A DNA stretch of 64,000 bases from an uncultured Rhizobiaceae group bacterium (lineage in GTDB: Bacteria > Pseudomonadota > Alphaproteobacteria > Rhizobiales > Rhizobiaceae): assembly GCA_947501445.1 (NCBI GenBank), contig CANMVS010000007.1:248001-312000 (forward strand), written 5' to 3'. A program made the translations under genes and the position numbers. The notes below the pieces were generated by a model. It had not been told where the DNA came from. It made no database searches and saw only the letters and a list, made by a program, of their open reading frames with translations. Below are positions 38,052 to 60,360 of the stretch, piece after piece (positions within the stretch are counted from its first letter, which is position 1; every line of letters begins with the position of its first letter).

Positions 38052-39218
38052 CTACAATCTTACCCAGGCGGAACTTTGCCGGTTGGAACGCACACAGGCT
38101 TCTATGAAGTTCACACCAGCTACGCCGTCATCAACACCGGGCGTGTGGACGTCTGCCTCCAGTGTGGTTCCATTCATTGCGGCACGAATTTTCCGAGCTG
38201 CCTCGCAATAGATTGTAGCAAATCCTTCCAGATACCCTTCCGGGTGTCCGGGTGGAATACGTGAAACGCGGCCCGCCGATGGGCTCGACTGCGGGCCGGC
38301 GCGCACGATGCGCCTGGTTGCCTCTCCCCGGGCACTGAACCAGAGGTTGTTGGGGTCCTCCTGACACCATTCAAGGCTTGCCTTTTCGCCAAACACACGA
38401 AGGCGCAATGCATTGTCCTGACCAATGGCTATCTGACTTGTCCAGATCAGGCCACGGGCGCCGCCGGCAAAACGCAACATGATATGCGCATTGTCATCAA
38501 GTTGGCGACCGGGCACAAAAGTCGTCAGGTCGGCGGCGAGGCTTTCGGGCTGCAATCCGGTCACAAAATGCACCAGATGAAAGGCATGAGTGCCAATGTC
38601 ACCGATCGAACCACCGGCACCGGCCCGCGCCGGATCAGTGCGCCATTCTGCCTGTTTCAGGCCGGTTGTTTCAGCCGGTTCACTCAGCCACCCCTGTGCA
38701 TATTCCGCCTGTACCACGCGGATTGGACCCAATTGATTATCCTGGATCATCTCACGGGCCTGACGCACCATGGGATAACCTGAATAATTGTGGGTCAGCA
38801 CAAAAATGGCACCGGATCGTGCCGCCATATCTGCCAGCCTTTTTGCCTCCACCAGCGTATTGGTCAGCGGTTTGTCGCAGATCACATGGATCTGTTGCTG
38901 TAAAAAGGCTTCAGCTGCTGCCATATGCTGATGGTTGGGGGTAACGATCGAGACAACATCAATGCCATCAGCGCGCTCAGCTTCCCGGTGGGCCATTTGC
39001 TGAAAATTCGTATAGATTCGATCCGGTTTCAGGCCCAGCTCCTGTCCGGAGGCCAGTGCCCGATCGGGGTTGGAGGACAAGGCACCGGCAACCAGTTCAA
39101 ACTGGCCGTCCAATCGGGCCGCCATGCGGTGCACAGCGCCAATAAATGCACCCTGTCCACCGCCAACCATACCCAGTCGCAGCGGGCGATCGGGTGTTGT
39201 GCCGATAAAGTTGCTCAT
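38052..39218 (-). CDS. Gfo/Idh/MocA family oxidoreductase
   Basis: A 388-residue NAD(P)-dependent dehydrogenase. The N-terminal Rossmann motif [17 protein letters not shown] is followed by [17 protein letters not shown] sequence and CDKPLTN, where the EKP-type lysine sits. Family members oxidise sugars, inositols and related polyols. It is the last gene of the long operon and overlaps the TIM-barrel isomerase gene by four bases, a pairing common in inositol and keto-sugar catabolism. Confidence 0.92.
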
Positions 39219-40273
39219 CGAGAAAGTCCCAGCATCTGTGCATTGATTGCCGTGTCCGTATCAGCGGCAGCAAAATCATCAAATGCATGTTCGGTCACCG
39301 GGATAATGTGACGGCGAATGAAATCTGCACCTTCGCGTGCGCCGGCCTCTGGATGTTTGAGTGCACATTCCCACTCCAAAACCGCCCAGCTGTCATAATC
39401 ATAGGCAGCGAGTTTTGAAAAAACAGCGGCAAAATCAACCTGACCGTCCCCAAGCGAGCGAAAGCGGCCCGCCCGTTCAACCCAGGGCGCATAGCCGGAA
39501 TAGACACCCTGTTTCGGTGAAGGATTGAACTCGGCGTCCTTGACGTGAAAGGCGGCGATACGCTCGTGATAGTGATCGATGAACCCCAGATAATCCAGAC
39601 ACTGCAGAACAAAATGGCTGGGATCATAGTTGATTTTGCAGCGTGCGTGGTTGCCAACCCTTTGCAGGAACATTTCGAATGTCGTGCCGTCGAACAGATC
39701 CTCGCCGGGGTGAATTTCATAGCAAAGATCAACCCCAACGGCGTCAAACGCATCAAGGATGGGCCGCCAGCGGCGCGCCAGCTCATCAAAGGCATCTTCA
39801 ATCAGCCCTGCCGGGCGTTGCGGCCATGGATAGATATAGGGCCACGCCAGTGACCCGGAAAAAGTTACATGCGATGTCAGACGCAGACGCTGTGAAACCC
39901 GCGCCGCCTTTGTCATCTGTTCAACCGCCCACCTTTGTCGGGCTTCGGGGTTACCGTGCAACTGAACCGGTGCAAAGCCATCAAACGGGCGGTCATAGGC
40001 GGCATGGACGGCAACCAGTTGTCCCTGAAGGTGGCTCGACAGATCAGTGATAGTCACGCCAGCCTCATTGCAAATCCCCAGGACCTCATCACAATAATCA
40101 TAGCTGTCTGCTGCCAGATCCAGATCAAAAAGGCGTTTGTCCCAGCTGGGAATCTGGACACCCTCATAGCCAAGGCCGGCAGCCCAGCCGGTAATTGATC
40201 TCAGCGAATTGAAGGGGGCGGCATCGCCGGCAAACTGCGCCAGAAACAGGCCCGGTCCCTTGATGGTTTTCAT
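39215..40273 (-). CDS. Sugar phosphate isomerase/epimerase family TIM-barrel protein
   Basis: A 352-residue member of the xylose isomerase-like TIM-barrel superfamily. CYEIHPGEDLFDGTTFEMF, INYDPSHFVLQ and FHVKDAEFN carry the expected glutamate, aspartate, histidine and lysine metal or catalytic residues. It probably isomerises, epimerises or cleaves a keto-sugar together with the Gfo/Idh enzyme encoded next. It starts four bases after the upstream fusion gene. Confidence 0.88.
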   Translation of the reverse strand: MKTIKGPGLFLAQFAGDAAPFNSLRSITGWAAGLGYEGVQIPSWDKRLFDLDLAADSYDYCDEVLGICNEAGVTITDLSSHLQGQLVAVHAAYDRPFDGFAPVQLHGNPEARQRWAVEQMTKAARVSQRLRLTSHVTFSGSLAWPYIYPWPQRPAGLIEDAFDELARRWRPILDAFDAVGVDLCYEIHPGEDLFDGTTFEMFLQRVGNHARCKINYDPSHFVLQCLDYLGFIDHYHERIAAFHVKDAEFNPSPKQGVYSGYAPWVERAGRFRSLGDGQVDFAAVFSKLAAYDYDSWAVLEWECALKHPEAGAREGADFIRRHIIPVTEHAFDDFAAADTDTAINAQMLGLSR

Positions 40274-40277
40274 CGCA

Positions 40278-58258: not shown

Positions 58259-59343
58259 GGTGCTTCGCCCATCTGATCGCGCAAGGGGTCACGTTTTTGA
58301 TACGCCCGCATCCGATCCCAAAGACCCAAAATACCGTCCGGTGAAAAGAACACGATCAACAGGAAACACAGACCGATCAACAGTTGAAAACGGTCACCGC
58401 TCAAGCCAAGCGACACAAGAATATCAATCGCGAAAGTTTTGAGGATGACATAAATAAATGCGCCGATGAACGGACCGATCGGACGCGTCATTCCACCAAT
58501 AACGGCAATCACCAGAATGTCGATCACCGGACCGATACCGGCTGTTCCAGGTGAGATCTGGGTGGATTGCCAGGTTAAGAGGATACCGCCGAGGCCGGCG
58601 ATCAGCGCCGCGAAAGTATAGGCTGCGATACGATGTGCATTAACGTTATAGCCAAGGGCTGCCATGCGGCGGGCGTTGTCTCGCACGCCTTGCAAGGCCA
58701 ATCCGAATGGCGCGCGTGAGATGTAGAGAACAACAAGATAGGAAACCGTGGCCCAAAAGAGCGTGAGATAATAAAACGGAACCGGATTGCGCCAGTCGAT
58801 GCCAAAAAGATTGGGCGCCAACACGCCGTTAAAACCGGAGAACCCGTTGAACAGCACGTAGTTCTGACGGGTAAAATAGAAAAACGCCGAGGCAATCGCC
58901 AGCGTGATCATGATGGTATAGATACCGTCGGTGCGCACGGCGAGGGCACCGGTCAATGTTCCAAATATCATTGCGATCAAAAGTGCCAGTGGAATGCTTA
59001 TCCACCAGGGCCAGCCAAGTGATATTTCCGTTATGGCGCTGTCTCCGATGATGGCCAGCATATAGCCGGCAAGTGCTGCAATGGTCATTTGGACAATGCT
59101 GACCATGCCGCCGTAGCCCGCCAGAAACATCAAGGACAGGGCAATCATGCCAAGGATAAAGGACCAGCCGAATATCTGATAGAGCGCGAAGTCGGATGCC
59201 ATTACTGGCATGATCAGCAGAACCAGAGCGAGAAGCCAGTAAATAGCAGGCACGCGTTCGAACCACGTCGTTTTTGCGCCCTGGCTTTGACTGTCAGCGG
59301 ATGTCTTGACGGAATCGCCACTTTGCTGGTCAACAACGGCCAT
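58255..59343 (-). CDS. livM: Branched-chain amino acid-type ABC transporter permease LivM
   Basis: A 362-residue permease with about ten hydrophobic segments. The conserved LQGVRDNARRMAALGYNVNAHR loop, which contacts the ATPases, and GGMTRPIGPFIGAF near the C-terminus are typical of LivM. The N-terminus carries a 35-residue cytoplasmic extension. It lies three bases after livH. Confidence 0.92.
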   Translation of the reverse strand: MAVVDQQSGDSVKTSADSQSQGAKTTWFERVPAIYWLLALVLLIMPVMASDFALYQIFGWSFILGMIALSLMFLAGYGGMVSIVQMTIAALAGYMLAIIGDSAITEISLGWPWWISIPLALLIAMIFGTLTGALAVRTDGIYTIMITLAIASAFFYFTRQNYVLFNGFSGFNGVLAPNLFGIDWRNPVPFYYLTLFWATVSYLVVLYISRAPFGLALQGVRDNARRMAALGYNVNAHRIAAYTFAALIAGLGGILLTWQSTQISPGTAGIGPVIDILVIAVIGGMTRPIGPFIGAFIYVILKTFAIDILVSLGLSGDRFQLLIGLCFLLIVFFSPDGILGLWDRMRAYQKRDPLRDQMGEAP

Positions 59344-59346
59344 GGG

Positions 59347-60360
59347 TCACGCCTTTCCCATAATGCCCTGAGGGCGGAAAGCGAGCACTGCGACCATAAT
59401 GACAAAGGTCACAACGACGGCGTAAGTCGGCAGGTAGACGGAGCCAAATTGTTCAGCAAGCCCAATCAGTGCCGCCCCGATGGCCGCACCGGTAATCGAG
59501 CCCATGCCCCCGACAATGACCACGACAAGCGATGCCAGCAGAAATCGTATGTCTTCTCCTGGTGCTATCGACTGGAACGTACCGCCGACGACACCCGCAA
59601 GACCCGCAAGGCCAGCGCCAAAGGCGAAGACACCCACAAAGACCAACTGAATGCGTGCACCCGTTGCCGACAACATGTCCCGGTCGTCGACGCCGGCGCG
59701 GATCATCATGCCGATCTGGGTTCTGTTGAGCAGCAGCCACATGCCAAAACCGATCACCACGGACGCCGCCAGAATGACCAGACGGACAATGGGATACTTC
59801 ATGAATATGAATTCGCCGGTCGAGCGTTTGACACCGGTTATGAAGAAAGTTTCGATTGGGCCGCTGAGCCAGGATGGCGGGTTGATGTTGTAAAAATCAC
59901 CGCCCCAGATCCATAACATCAGGTCGGCCATGACGATTGAAATACCAATCGTGACCAGCGTTTGCCGCAGGTCTTGACCTTCCATGCGCCGGAAAACAAA
60001 GAACTGCAGCAGAACACCAAATGCGCCGACAACAAAAAAGGAAACGGGGAAGGCCAAAATCCAATAACCGGTCGAACTGGCAACGCCGTAGCCAATGTAT
60101 CCACCGAGCAGATAGAGCGACCCATGTGCCAGATTGACGTTGCGCATAAGGCCGAAGATCAGCGTGAAGCCGCTGGCAACCAGAAAGTACAATCCGCCCA
60201 GGGTGATGCCATTGAACAGGGCATTGAGAAAAATCTTCTTGCGACCGATCAAGCTGGTAAGCCACTGCGGCCAGACAGCAAAGATCATCCAGATCAGCAC
60301 CGCTGCCAGACAAAACAAAATGACCGACCATATGGGACGCTGCTCAATGAATCGCCTCAT
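59347..60360 (-). CDS. livH: Branched-chain amino acid-type ABC transporter permease LivH
   Basis: A 337-residue permease and apparently the first gene of the 22-kb operon. NGITLGGLYFLVASGFTLIF, VNLAHGSLYLLGGYIGY and the loop RAGVDDRDMLSATGARIQ are LivH hallmarks. HAAT importers carry amino acids, amides, urea or aromatic acids, so the substrate is open. No periplasmic binding protein gene was found in the window. Confidence 0.92.
   Translation of the reverse strand: MRRFIEQRPIWSVILFCLAAVLIWMIFAVWPQWLTSLIGRKKIFLNALFNGITLGGLYFLVASGFTLIFGLMRNVNLAHGSLYLLGGYIGYGVASSTGYWILAFPVSFFVVGAFGVLLQFFVFRRMEGQDLRQTLVTIGISIVMADLMLWIWGGDFYNINPPSWLSGPIETFFITGVKRSTGEFIFMKYPIVRLVILAASVVIGFGMWLLLNRTQIGMMIRAGVDDRDMLSATGARIQLVFVGVFAFGAGLAGLAGVVGGTFQSIAPGEDIRFLLASLVVVIVGGMGSITGAAIGAALIGLAEQFGSVYLPTYAVVVTFVIMVAVLAFRPQGIMGKA

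Follow-up and report, generated by a model that had tools for sequence, protein, structure and literature searches.

A conserved operon linking an ABC importer, a Tm-1-like domain, a giant flotillin and a split molybdenum hydroxylase

Introduction

Why should a bacterium place an ATP-binding cassette (ABC) importer, a Tm-1-like domain, a giant flotillin and a molybdenum (Mo) hydroxylase in a single run of genes? The question is raised by a 64,000-nucleotide stretch of DNA from an uncultured Rhizobiaceae group bacterium (assembly GCA_947501445.1, contig CANMVS010000007.1, positions 248,001 to 312,000), here called the window, in which nineteen genes (g1 to g19) follow one another on the minus strand, the first beginning at 60360 and the last ending at 38052. 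An earlier note on the window had proposed that these tightly packed genes form one operon for the import of an organic molecule, its oxidation by a Mo enzyme and the opening of a lactone by a hydrolase, perhaps in a membrane-bound assembly. All nineteen open reading frames (ORFs) are present and each belongs to a Pfam family, with sub-cut-off NCBIfam matches for most of the proteins, and import, Mo-enzyme oxidation and hydrolysis are indeed the natural reading of the gene set. Having compared the locus with its relatives, we lean towards the view that these genes make up a single conserved catabolic operon and that the enzymes of its pathway gather on a flotillin scaffold, where the operon's importer brings the substrate through the membrane. 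Such an operon would give a concrete bacterial job to three proteins of unsettled role: flotillin, Tm-1/UPF0261 and the PF09370 barrel.

The nearest relatives share one gene order

A contig scan with the first of the two SRPBCC proteins (SRPBCC1, g7) returned at least 569 relatives, of which the best 80 loci were kept, so that the uniformity described here is that of the nearest relatives. ORFs in these loci were called with a codon-trained picker, which is imperfect, and absences were rechecked by tblastn. The core genes that are present lie in the same order and on one strand in 80/80 loci, with the flotillin gene immediately 5′ of SRPBCC1 in every one, and all 17 core genes, from the LivH-type permease (g1) to a fusion of SMP-30/gluconolactonase (SGL) and isochorismatase-like domains (g17), were found in 52. 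The earlier note had expected the blocks of this operon to recur together in other genomes, and in these 52 complete loci they do. Seventeen of the remaining 28 loci are shortened by a contig end and 11 are full-length: three lack the metallo-beta-lactamase-fold (MBL) gene (L038, L046 and L053), two the amidohydrolase gene (L086 and L089) and two the SGL-isochorismatase gene, with little sequence left at that end (L035 and L052); in L054 and L055 the CoxD or CoxE end is missing and the gene for MoB, the second half of the Mo subunit, is followed by several kb of other sequence; the last two, L024 and L050, are weighed below.

The titles of the 80 loci bear mostly Hyphomicrobiales- and Rhodobacterales-type names, together with Arenicellales and Granulosicoccaceae, that is, some gammaproteobacterial groups. 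Plasmid copies occur in Yoonia sp. SS1-5 and in Shinella zoogloeoides Teo12, the latter without the MBL gene. One locus titled Oceanobacillus, a genus of the Bacillota (L041), carries an operon of alphaproteobacterial type and possibly comes from a mislabelled or contaminated assembly. Chance could in principle have brought together neighbouring catabolic modules that have no functional link, and the modules seen here do occur apart in other genomes (see below), but we find this hardly credible as an account of an order that recurs in every locus across these groups, in genes that overlap or nearly touch.

A flotillin with an extended wall

Gene g6 (50928..54425; this and all window coordinates below are on the minus strand) encodes a flotillin of 1165 residues that has Band_7 (residues 44-195) and Flot (988-1117) domains and a hydrophobic N-terminus, the last read from the sequence; its score with the FloT equivalog NF058507 is 29.4 bits against a cut-off of 700. 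The middle of the protein (~285-945), which we call the wall, is built of a 44-residue repeat, each copy comprising four units of 11 residues (hendecads). Counting from residue 285, an I, L, V or M recurs at every eleventh position 61 times in succession (~660 residues), the longest such run in 1000 shuffles being 8, and there is no proline in residues 196-1049.

Wall lengths were compared in 79 flotillins (cut or short ones dropped; those of the window, Yoonia and Variovorax added) with alignment-mapped anchors, which could be placed in 78; regular-expression anchors had given five remainders modulo 11, which we attribute to slipping. The walls fall into 29 length classes, and the differences from the window are all 0 or 3 modulo 11 (46 and 32 sequences; n = 78). 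The 3-residue offset class could be one lineage-specific insertion. Among 42 flotillin matches in 81 related genomes, we assign the ten best to type A, the arrangement of the window, with open frames of 890-1359 residues, and the next five to type B, an arrangement described below, with open frames of 739-915 residues (G059 and G454 were assigned to type A, and G461 to type B, by score alone). Of the other 27 matches, 23 have 521-639 residues, and another is truncated at 150.

The cage formed by human flotillin has a height of 22 nm and a wall free of holes, and the wall helices of the SPFH proteins surveyed span 44 to 189 residues, as given in the part of the source consulted (PMC11260169). 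The window protein shares with such cages the N-terminal hydrophobic segment, the Band_7 and Flot domains and a long wall that is predicted to be helical, and it differs from them in its ~660 in-phase wall residues, as against the 44-189 of that part of the survey (PMC11260169), and in having an importer and a Mo enzyme among its operon partners. By analogy with the human complex, g6 may form an oligomeric cage on the membrane, and scaling from that cage would make a straight wall of this length ~77 nm tall. At a helix rise of 0.15 nm per residue the corresponding figure would be ~99 nm. Hendecad-extended flotillins did not turn up in a literature search on flotillin cages, which was not a search dedicated to them.

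A split Mo hydroxylase with a tail seen in flotillin operons

Downstream of the SRPBCC genes lie those of a three-component Mo hydroxylase from the xanthine-dehydrogenase superfamily, with a FAD subunit (g9, 49075..49875; FAD_binding_5 and CO_deh_flav_C), a subunit with two [2Fe-2S] domains (g10, 48593..49075; Fer2 and Fer2_2) and a Mo subunit split into an N-terminal half, MoA (g11, 46743..48593; Ald_Xan_dh_C and MoCoBD_1), and a C-terminal half, MoB (g12, 45722..46768; MoCoBD_2). MoA and MoB are separate genes in 72/72 loci, and the nine other MoCoBD_1 matches in the source genome have open frames of 757-927 residues. The best solved relatives of the two halves are chains A and B of 3hrd (182.5 and 150.8 bits), that is, of nicotinate dehydrogenase NdhFSLM, whose Mo subunit is split at the same MoCoBD_1/MoCoBD_2 domain border and with which the alignments show two conserved features, the RGFG loop and a GE close to the MoB C-terminus. 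By sequence, the split enzyme is nicotinate-dehydrogenase-like; the substrate is probably a (hetero)aromatic acid or aldehyde.

The enzyme is followed by genes for maturation proteins of the CoxD/CoxE type, a CoxD-like AAA+ ATPase (g13, 44838..45803; AAA_5, MadB-like by NCBIfam NF047784 below cut-off) and a CoxE-like VWA protein (g14, 43696..44841; VWA_CoxE, E 3.7e-44). A CoxD-like protein, a CoxE-like protein and an SRPBCC gene beside a three-component Mo hydroxylase recall the cox cluster of aerobic CO dehydrogenase, from which the operon differs in its split Mo subunit, in its active-site loop and in SRPBCC proteins that Pfam does not assign to COXG; no CoxF-like match was found among the 19 proteins with Pfam or NCBIfam. 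The active-site loop of CO dehydrogenase carries a copper-binding Cys. We rejected a CO-dehydrogenase reading because MoA has AMRGFG where CoxL (8uem_A) has AYACSF in the alignment.

MoA differs from nicotinate dehydrogenase in continuing beyond its catalytic domain as a Pro/Ala-rich tail of ~105-250 residues that ends in RRR, whereas 3hrd_A (425 residues) has no tail. MoA was found in 76 loci, and four without a stop codon inside the locus were dropped; in the remaining 72 and the window the last three residues are RRR (72) or RKR (1). The Yoonia and Shinella proteins also end in RRR, bringing the count to 75/75 flotillin-type operons. An R[RK]R end is seen in none of the 31-80 sequences of each other core gene, CoxE (1/68) excepted, and in five of the 690 ORFs called in the neighbourhoods, one of the five being MoA itself. 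In five operons that lack the flotillin (type C, below), MoA is tail-less (5/5), ending 19-20 residues beyond the matched domain. This pattern fits a role of the tail as a docking tag for a flotillin-containing assembly.

The window operon is a union of two modules

Other arrangements, of which the named type examples were read, separate the parts of the operon. Type B (Variovorax, G114, G028, G034 and G004) is an importer/Tm-1/flotillin/SRPBCC operon without a Mo enzyme, in which genes for a FAHD protein and an amidohydrolase are followed by those for the substrate-binding protein (SBP), LivHMG, the LivF-Tm1 fusion, the TIM barrel (4/5), the flotillin, SRPBCC1 and a fusion of the second SRPBCC to an alcohol dehydrogenase (490 residues in Variovorax; open frames of 509-521 residues in the others). 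An alignment that included the Variovorax fusion also gathered alcohol dehydrogenases, so that single places and not its tally were used. Type C (G229, G331, G388, G026 and one locus of G181, C22) has one SRPBCC, the split Mo enzyme, CoxD, CoxE and an amidohydrolase, with an AraC gene in the four loci that have upstream sequence; no flotillin match was found in the flanks fetched (for G181:C22, the downstream flank). In G026 Tm-1 and the TIM barrel lie ~12 kb further on. A third arrangement, in G376, comprises genes for an SBP, an iron-type alcohol dehydrogenase (Fe-ADH), AraC, LivHMG, a LivF fusion with a decayed UPF0261 (L130:7644-9701; UPF0261_C scores 23.9 bits against a cut-off of 27), a giant flotillin, two divergent SRPBCCs, an MBL protein and an aldehyde dehydrogenase (ALDH). 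Because these arrangements separate the parts, the window operon combines two modules, one consisting of importer/Tm-1/flotillin/SRPBCC and the other of SRPBCC/Mo-enzyme/CoxDE. The co-occurrence of the blocks expected by the note thus holds in modular form, with flotillin-without-Mo and Mo-without-flotillin operons beside the 52 complete ones.

Among 398 evenly sampled Pseudomonadota genomes, SRPBCC1 has a relative at E up to 1e-20 in 22 and the PF09370 barrel at E up to 1e-30 in at least 27, the barrel counts being lower bounds (up to six candidates per genome were scored). The arrangement of TIM barrel and flotillin occurs in at least 12 of the 398, the source genome included, eight of the 12 being from one genus. 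Among the matches listed, Tm-1 lies on the upstream side of the barrel in 30/30 barrel loci and the flotillin immediately after it in 12/30 (12 genomes, including the source genome), and in 16/30 neither SRPBCC nor flotillin was found within ~1.5 kb. The notion that Tm-1, TIM barrel and SRPBCC always form a trio was rejected, as SRPBCC directly follows the barrel in 2 of these 30 listed loci. The operon is therefore not rare, yet full-text searches aimed at it, at LivF-Tm1 fusions and at flotillins with SRPBCC proteins found no account of any of them, nor is it described in the literature consulted on homarine, CoxG and flotillin cages. The family of each part is known, and so, from the part of PMC5028733 consulted, is the co-evolution of UPF0261 with TBST; new to us are the 61 unbroken wall repeats, the fusion of Tm-1 to LivF and the flotillin-linked tail of MoA.

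The importer, its Tm-1 domain and the SRPBCC proteins

The importer genes of the window encode LivH-type (g1, 59347..60360) and LivM-type (g2, 58255..59343) permeases, both BPD_transp_2, a LivG-type ATPase (g3, 57467..58258; ABC_tran, closest to UrtD/LivG in NCBIfam, below cut-off) and a LivF-type ATPase (g4, 55270..57519). The importer had seemed incomplete because the SBP gene lies just outside the window, on the same strand as g1 (L008:4387-5634 = G000:C7:312386-313633; Peripla_BP_6); with it there are two permeases, two ATPases and an SBP, as in LIV-type ABC importers. The nearest sequence relative of the SBP is 4zpj, followed by a group comprising 4ey3, 4evq, 4evs and 4f06, which we take to be lignin-type aromatic-acid binding proteins and treat as a lead only.

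The Tm-1 domains seen by the earlier note are complete (UPF0261 N and C parts), and they are not separate proteins: they occupy the C-terminal half of the gene for the LivF ATPase, which encodes 749 residues (ABC_tran 39-178, UPF0261 342-511, UPF0261_C 521-735) and is a single ORF in 73/73 loci. The adjacent gene, g5 (54422..55270), encodes a PF09370 TIM barrel ('PEP hydrolase-like', TBST; Pfam E 4.6e-129) with 64% identity to 2p10. The locus thus has both UPF0261 domains and a neighbouring PF09370 gene, as in the plant Tm-1 and bacterial UPF0261 + TBST pair, for which adjacency and co-evolution of the Tm-1-like and TBST genes, and the occurrence of Tm-1/UPF0261 across land plants, are on record in the part of the source consulted (PMC5028733). 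The operon departs from that pair in the fusion of Tm-1 to an ABC ATPase and in the flotillin and SRPBCC genes that come next, partners not mentioned in that part of PMC5028733. A model of the barrel (mean pLDDT 79.5, with loops under 50) matches 2p10 and then the PdxS, triosephosphate isomerase and TrpC barrels. Together with the ATP binding that we presume for the Tm-1 partner, these model-based matches suggest a phosphorylate-then-cleave pair. The Tm-1 domain may also have a structural role, given the decayed UPF0261 in the G376 operon with its giant flotillin and SRPBCCs.

Tm-1-like genes occur in further settings. On a plasmid of Thermomicrobium roseum (L006), a Tm-1/TIM/LIV-importer operon contains an unsplit Mo hydroxylase and PEP-synthase-like pieces, with no flotillin or SRPBCC match in that locus, and could represent an older or a parallel association between Tm-1 and a Mo enzyme. 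The source genome has a second Tm-1-like gene (L010:9438-10724, on G000:C13) beside an ALDH-like gene, with no TIM-barrel partner among the ORFs listed; by the look of these ORFs the transporter there is of tripartite-tricarboxylate type, another transporter setting for UPF0261.

The two SRPBCC proteins (g7, SRPBCC1, 50487..50924; g8, SRPBCC2, 49879..50367) are both Polyketide_cyc2 by Pfam. In the AlphaFold model of SRPBCC1 (mean pLDDT 92.5), the Foldseek top 50 include YPO0625, XoxI, Tfu_2981 and plant PYL receptors, so that the nearest predicted folds are uncharacterised SRPBCC proteins, XoxI and PYL receptors, in part ligand binders. For CoxG, an SRPBCC-superfamily protein, a role in connecting CO dehydrogenase with the membrane has been proposed, in the part of the source consulted (PMC4240915). 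On this precedent the pair might act as quinone carriers in the manner of CoxG, relaying electrons to the respiratory chain from the Mo enzyme, and a single SRPBCC gene does stand 5′ of the Mo enzyme and CoxD/CoxE in the flotillin-less operons. We nevertheless regard this as improbable: Pfam assigns Polyketide_cyc2 or Polyketide_cyc and not COXG, no CoxG is named in the Foldseek top 50 (the presence of a CoxG structure in the library being unchecked), and the pair stays with flotillin and Tm-1 where the Mo enzyme is absent. In the window SRPBCC1 and SRPBCC2 are separated by 119-164 bases (50368-50486 at the shorter reading), compared with a median overlap of 4 in the 80 loci, and Yoonia has a small annotated ORF at the equivalent position.

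A proposed pathway on a flotillin scaffold

The reading to which we commit is a catabolic pathway that is coupled to the importer, uses the flotillin as its scaffold and most likely acts on a (hetero)aromatic acid or a related aldehyde. The SBP and permeases would import a small organic acid or aldehyde, and the Tm-1 domain, placed at the cytoplasmic mouth of the importer, would modify or trap it together with the TIM barrel. The PYL/START-like SRPBCC proteins might carry poorly soluble or reactive intermediates. The Mo enzyme, brought to the assembly by the Pro-rich tail of MoA and its RRR tip, would oxidise the ring or the aldehyde. The MBL, amidohydrolase and SGL-isochorismatase enzymes would open the product hydrolytically, and a flotillin oligomer, its wall extended in 11-residue steps, would be the scaffold that holds importer and enzymes.

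Several observations weigh against this. Some parts can be dispensed with in relatives: the TIM barrel is missing from L050 and from G114 (type B), G376 has neither TIM barrel nor Mo enzyme, and in L024 no Mo-block or later gene follows SRPBCC1. The wall is imperfect in some relatives: across 77 flotillins the in-phase runs vary between 2 and 62 (median 31), and the longest stretch without proline is between 308 and 956 residues per orthologue. Length is shared by three further flotillins (753-790 residues) that belong to neither of the two high-scoring groups. Neither Mo half reaches any NCBIfam cut-off when the halves are scored apart (for XdhA, with a cut-off of 780, MoA gives 273.9 and MoB 150.5 bits). 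All type C MoA proteins belong to a single divergent group (54-58% identity to that of the window), and the link between tail and flotillin may therefore reflect a single evolutionary event. The scaffold role of g6 is drawn by analogy from other SPFH proteins, and the operon is known here from genes and sequence models: gene content, gene order, the fusions, the repeat and the tail are seen directly, and from them we infer substrate, reaction order, docking and cage. The membrane-bound assembly of the earlier note is plausible, given the conserved gene order, the wall repeats and the tail.

Two other accounts of the flotillin share much of this evidence. In one, it forms a closed membrane-based cage around the importer outlet and the enzymes and retains a toxic or volatile intermediate such as an aldehyde, like a microcompartment with an SPFH wall. 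The in-phase, Pro-free wall favours such a cage, as do the resemblance of the MoA tail to a cargo tag and the genes for Fe-ADH and ALDH, the classic enzymes of aldehyde microcompartments, that precede the operon in several loci; against it stand the orthologues with prolines or phase breaks at the low ends of the ranges above, and the analogy from which enclosure and assembly shape are drawn. We hold the cage to be a tentative possibility. In the other account, which we rate as equally tentative, the flotillin only marks a microdomain that concentrates the importer, and the RRR tail binds acidic lipids, the enzymes being otherwise soluble. The five type B operons, with flotillin and importer genes and no Mo enzyme, agree with this, as do a basic C-terminus suited to lipid binding and the lack of an acidic patch in the type A flotillin consensus over its last 12 residues. 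This account leaves unexplained why the wall is several times as long as in other flotillins and varies by 11-residue steps. Acidic, DDDDRDR-like ends are seen on the four type B flotillins printed (L124, L112, L114 and L116). An acidic flotillin tail as partner of RRR was dropped as a candidate, the type A consensus end (last 12 residues) having no DDDD-type tail.

The scaffold reading can be carried further, to a catabolic compartment walled by one giant flotillin, an importer-fed cage whose Mo hydroxylase is drawn in by the RRR tag that a flexible linker carries at its C-terminus; this we rate as unlikely. Such a cage would be ~77-99 nm tall if the 61 hendecads form a straight wall, and LivF would carry the first enzyme domain. 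If true, cage height would be set in 11-residue steps and would differ between species, and the assembly would be an SPFH-based counterpart of bacterial microcompartments. The Pdu and Eut microcompartments contain aldehyde and alcohol dehydrogenases and scaffolded enzymes with a terminal tag. The likeness to them lies in possible logic only, and Pfam finds no microcompartment shell domain in any of the 19 proteins. With walls that vary in 11-residue steps and a tail so far seen in flotillin operons only, what a bacterial flotillin holds becomes directly testable.

The ends of the operon and neighbouring genes

The nineteen genes of the earlier note are one conserved unit in part: the 52 complete and 80 collinear loci support a unit, which starts upstream of g1, partly outside the window, and ends at g17. 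Upstream of g1, on the same strand, lie genes for an AraC-family regulator (60630..61460; HTH_18, with an AraC match in 64/80 loci), an ALDH (61654..63084; 61% identity to an annotated aldehyde dehydrogenase at the same position in Yoonia, and present in some type A loci only), Fe-ADH (3′ part at 63092..64000, PF00465/PF25137; the gene runs past the window, L008:3093-4229, and Fe-ADH matches adjoin the SBP in several type A loci) and the SBP, followed by an ORF that reads as secA. At the other end the core closes with three hydrolase genes of lactonase or amidase type, encoding a fuconolactonase-like (below cut-off) amidohydrolase_2 protein (g15, 42821..43762), a lactonase-like MBL protein (g16, 41926..42774; 70-92% identity across the 64 loci that carry it) and the SGL-isochorismatase fusion (g17, 40278..41873).

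The xylose-isomerase-like TIM barrel of g18 (39215..40273) and the Gfo/Idh/MocA oxidoreductase of g19 (38052..39218) are local additions. Neither has a match at E up to 1e-5 in the 12/12 other loci that contain g17 or its end together with 5-19 kb beyond, and we place both outside the conserved unit because they lack a homologue after g17 in all 12 views. The final steps that the note had given to this pair are not supported. A sugar or sugar-lactone route with g18 and g19 as integral parts would suit the sugar-type families of g15, the SGL domain, g18 and g19. It would also suit the trios of Tm-1, TIM barrel and SRPBCC that accompany sugar ABC importers and Gfo/Idh genes in Bosea, Terrarubrum and Qingshengfaniella, and the Tm-1/TIM pair with a Gfo/Idh gene in Sinorhizobium. 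More broadly, related SRPBCCs (42-45% identity to g7/g8) occur with Tm-1 and TIM barrel beside sugar- or BMP-type importers in Bosea, Terrarubrum, Ensifer and Qingshengfaniella, and in Sinorhizobium fredii the Tm-1 and TIM genes adjoin a sugar importer with no annotated SRPBCC. The missing g18/g19 homologues nevertheless lead us to reject this route for the core, the importer and SBP are LIV-type, with the SBP closest to 4zpj and the 4ey3/4evq group, and overall we judge it very unlikely. In G006 and G057, short-chain dehydrogenase (SDR) genes resembling one of Yoonia lie just after g17, on the opposite strand in G057.

The junctions between g1 and g19 are overlaps or a few bases, with larger gaps of 46, 52 and 164 bases, as the note had listed. 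The last figure holds with ATG 50322, probably the true start of g8, and becomes 119 with TTG 50367. Four long overlaps (-53, -26, -82 and -67) arise from upstream TTG/GTG starts chosen by the ORF lister; internal ATG starts in g4, g12 and g13 (probably ATG 57474 for g4 and ATG 46741 for g12) would leave an overlap of 8, a gap of 1 and a gap of 2, and the start of g15 is ambiguous. A promoter scan of 37400-57000 returned 9 promoter-like sites, against 11.7 expected by shuffling.

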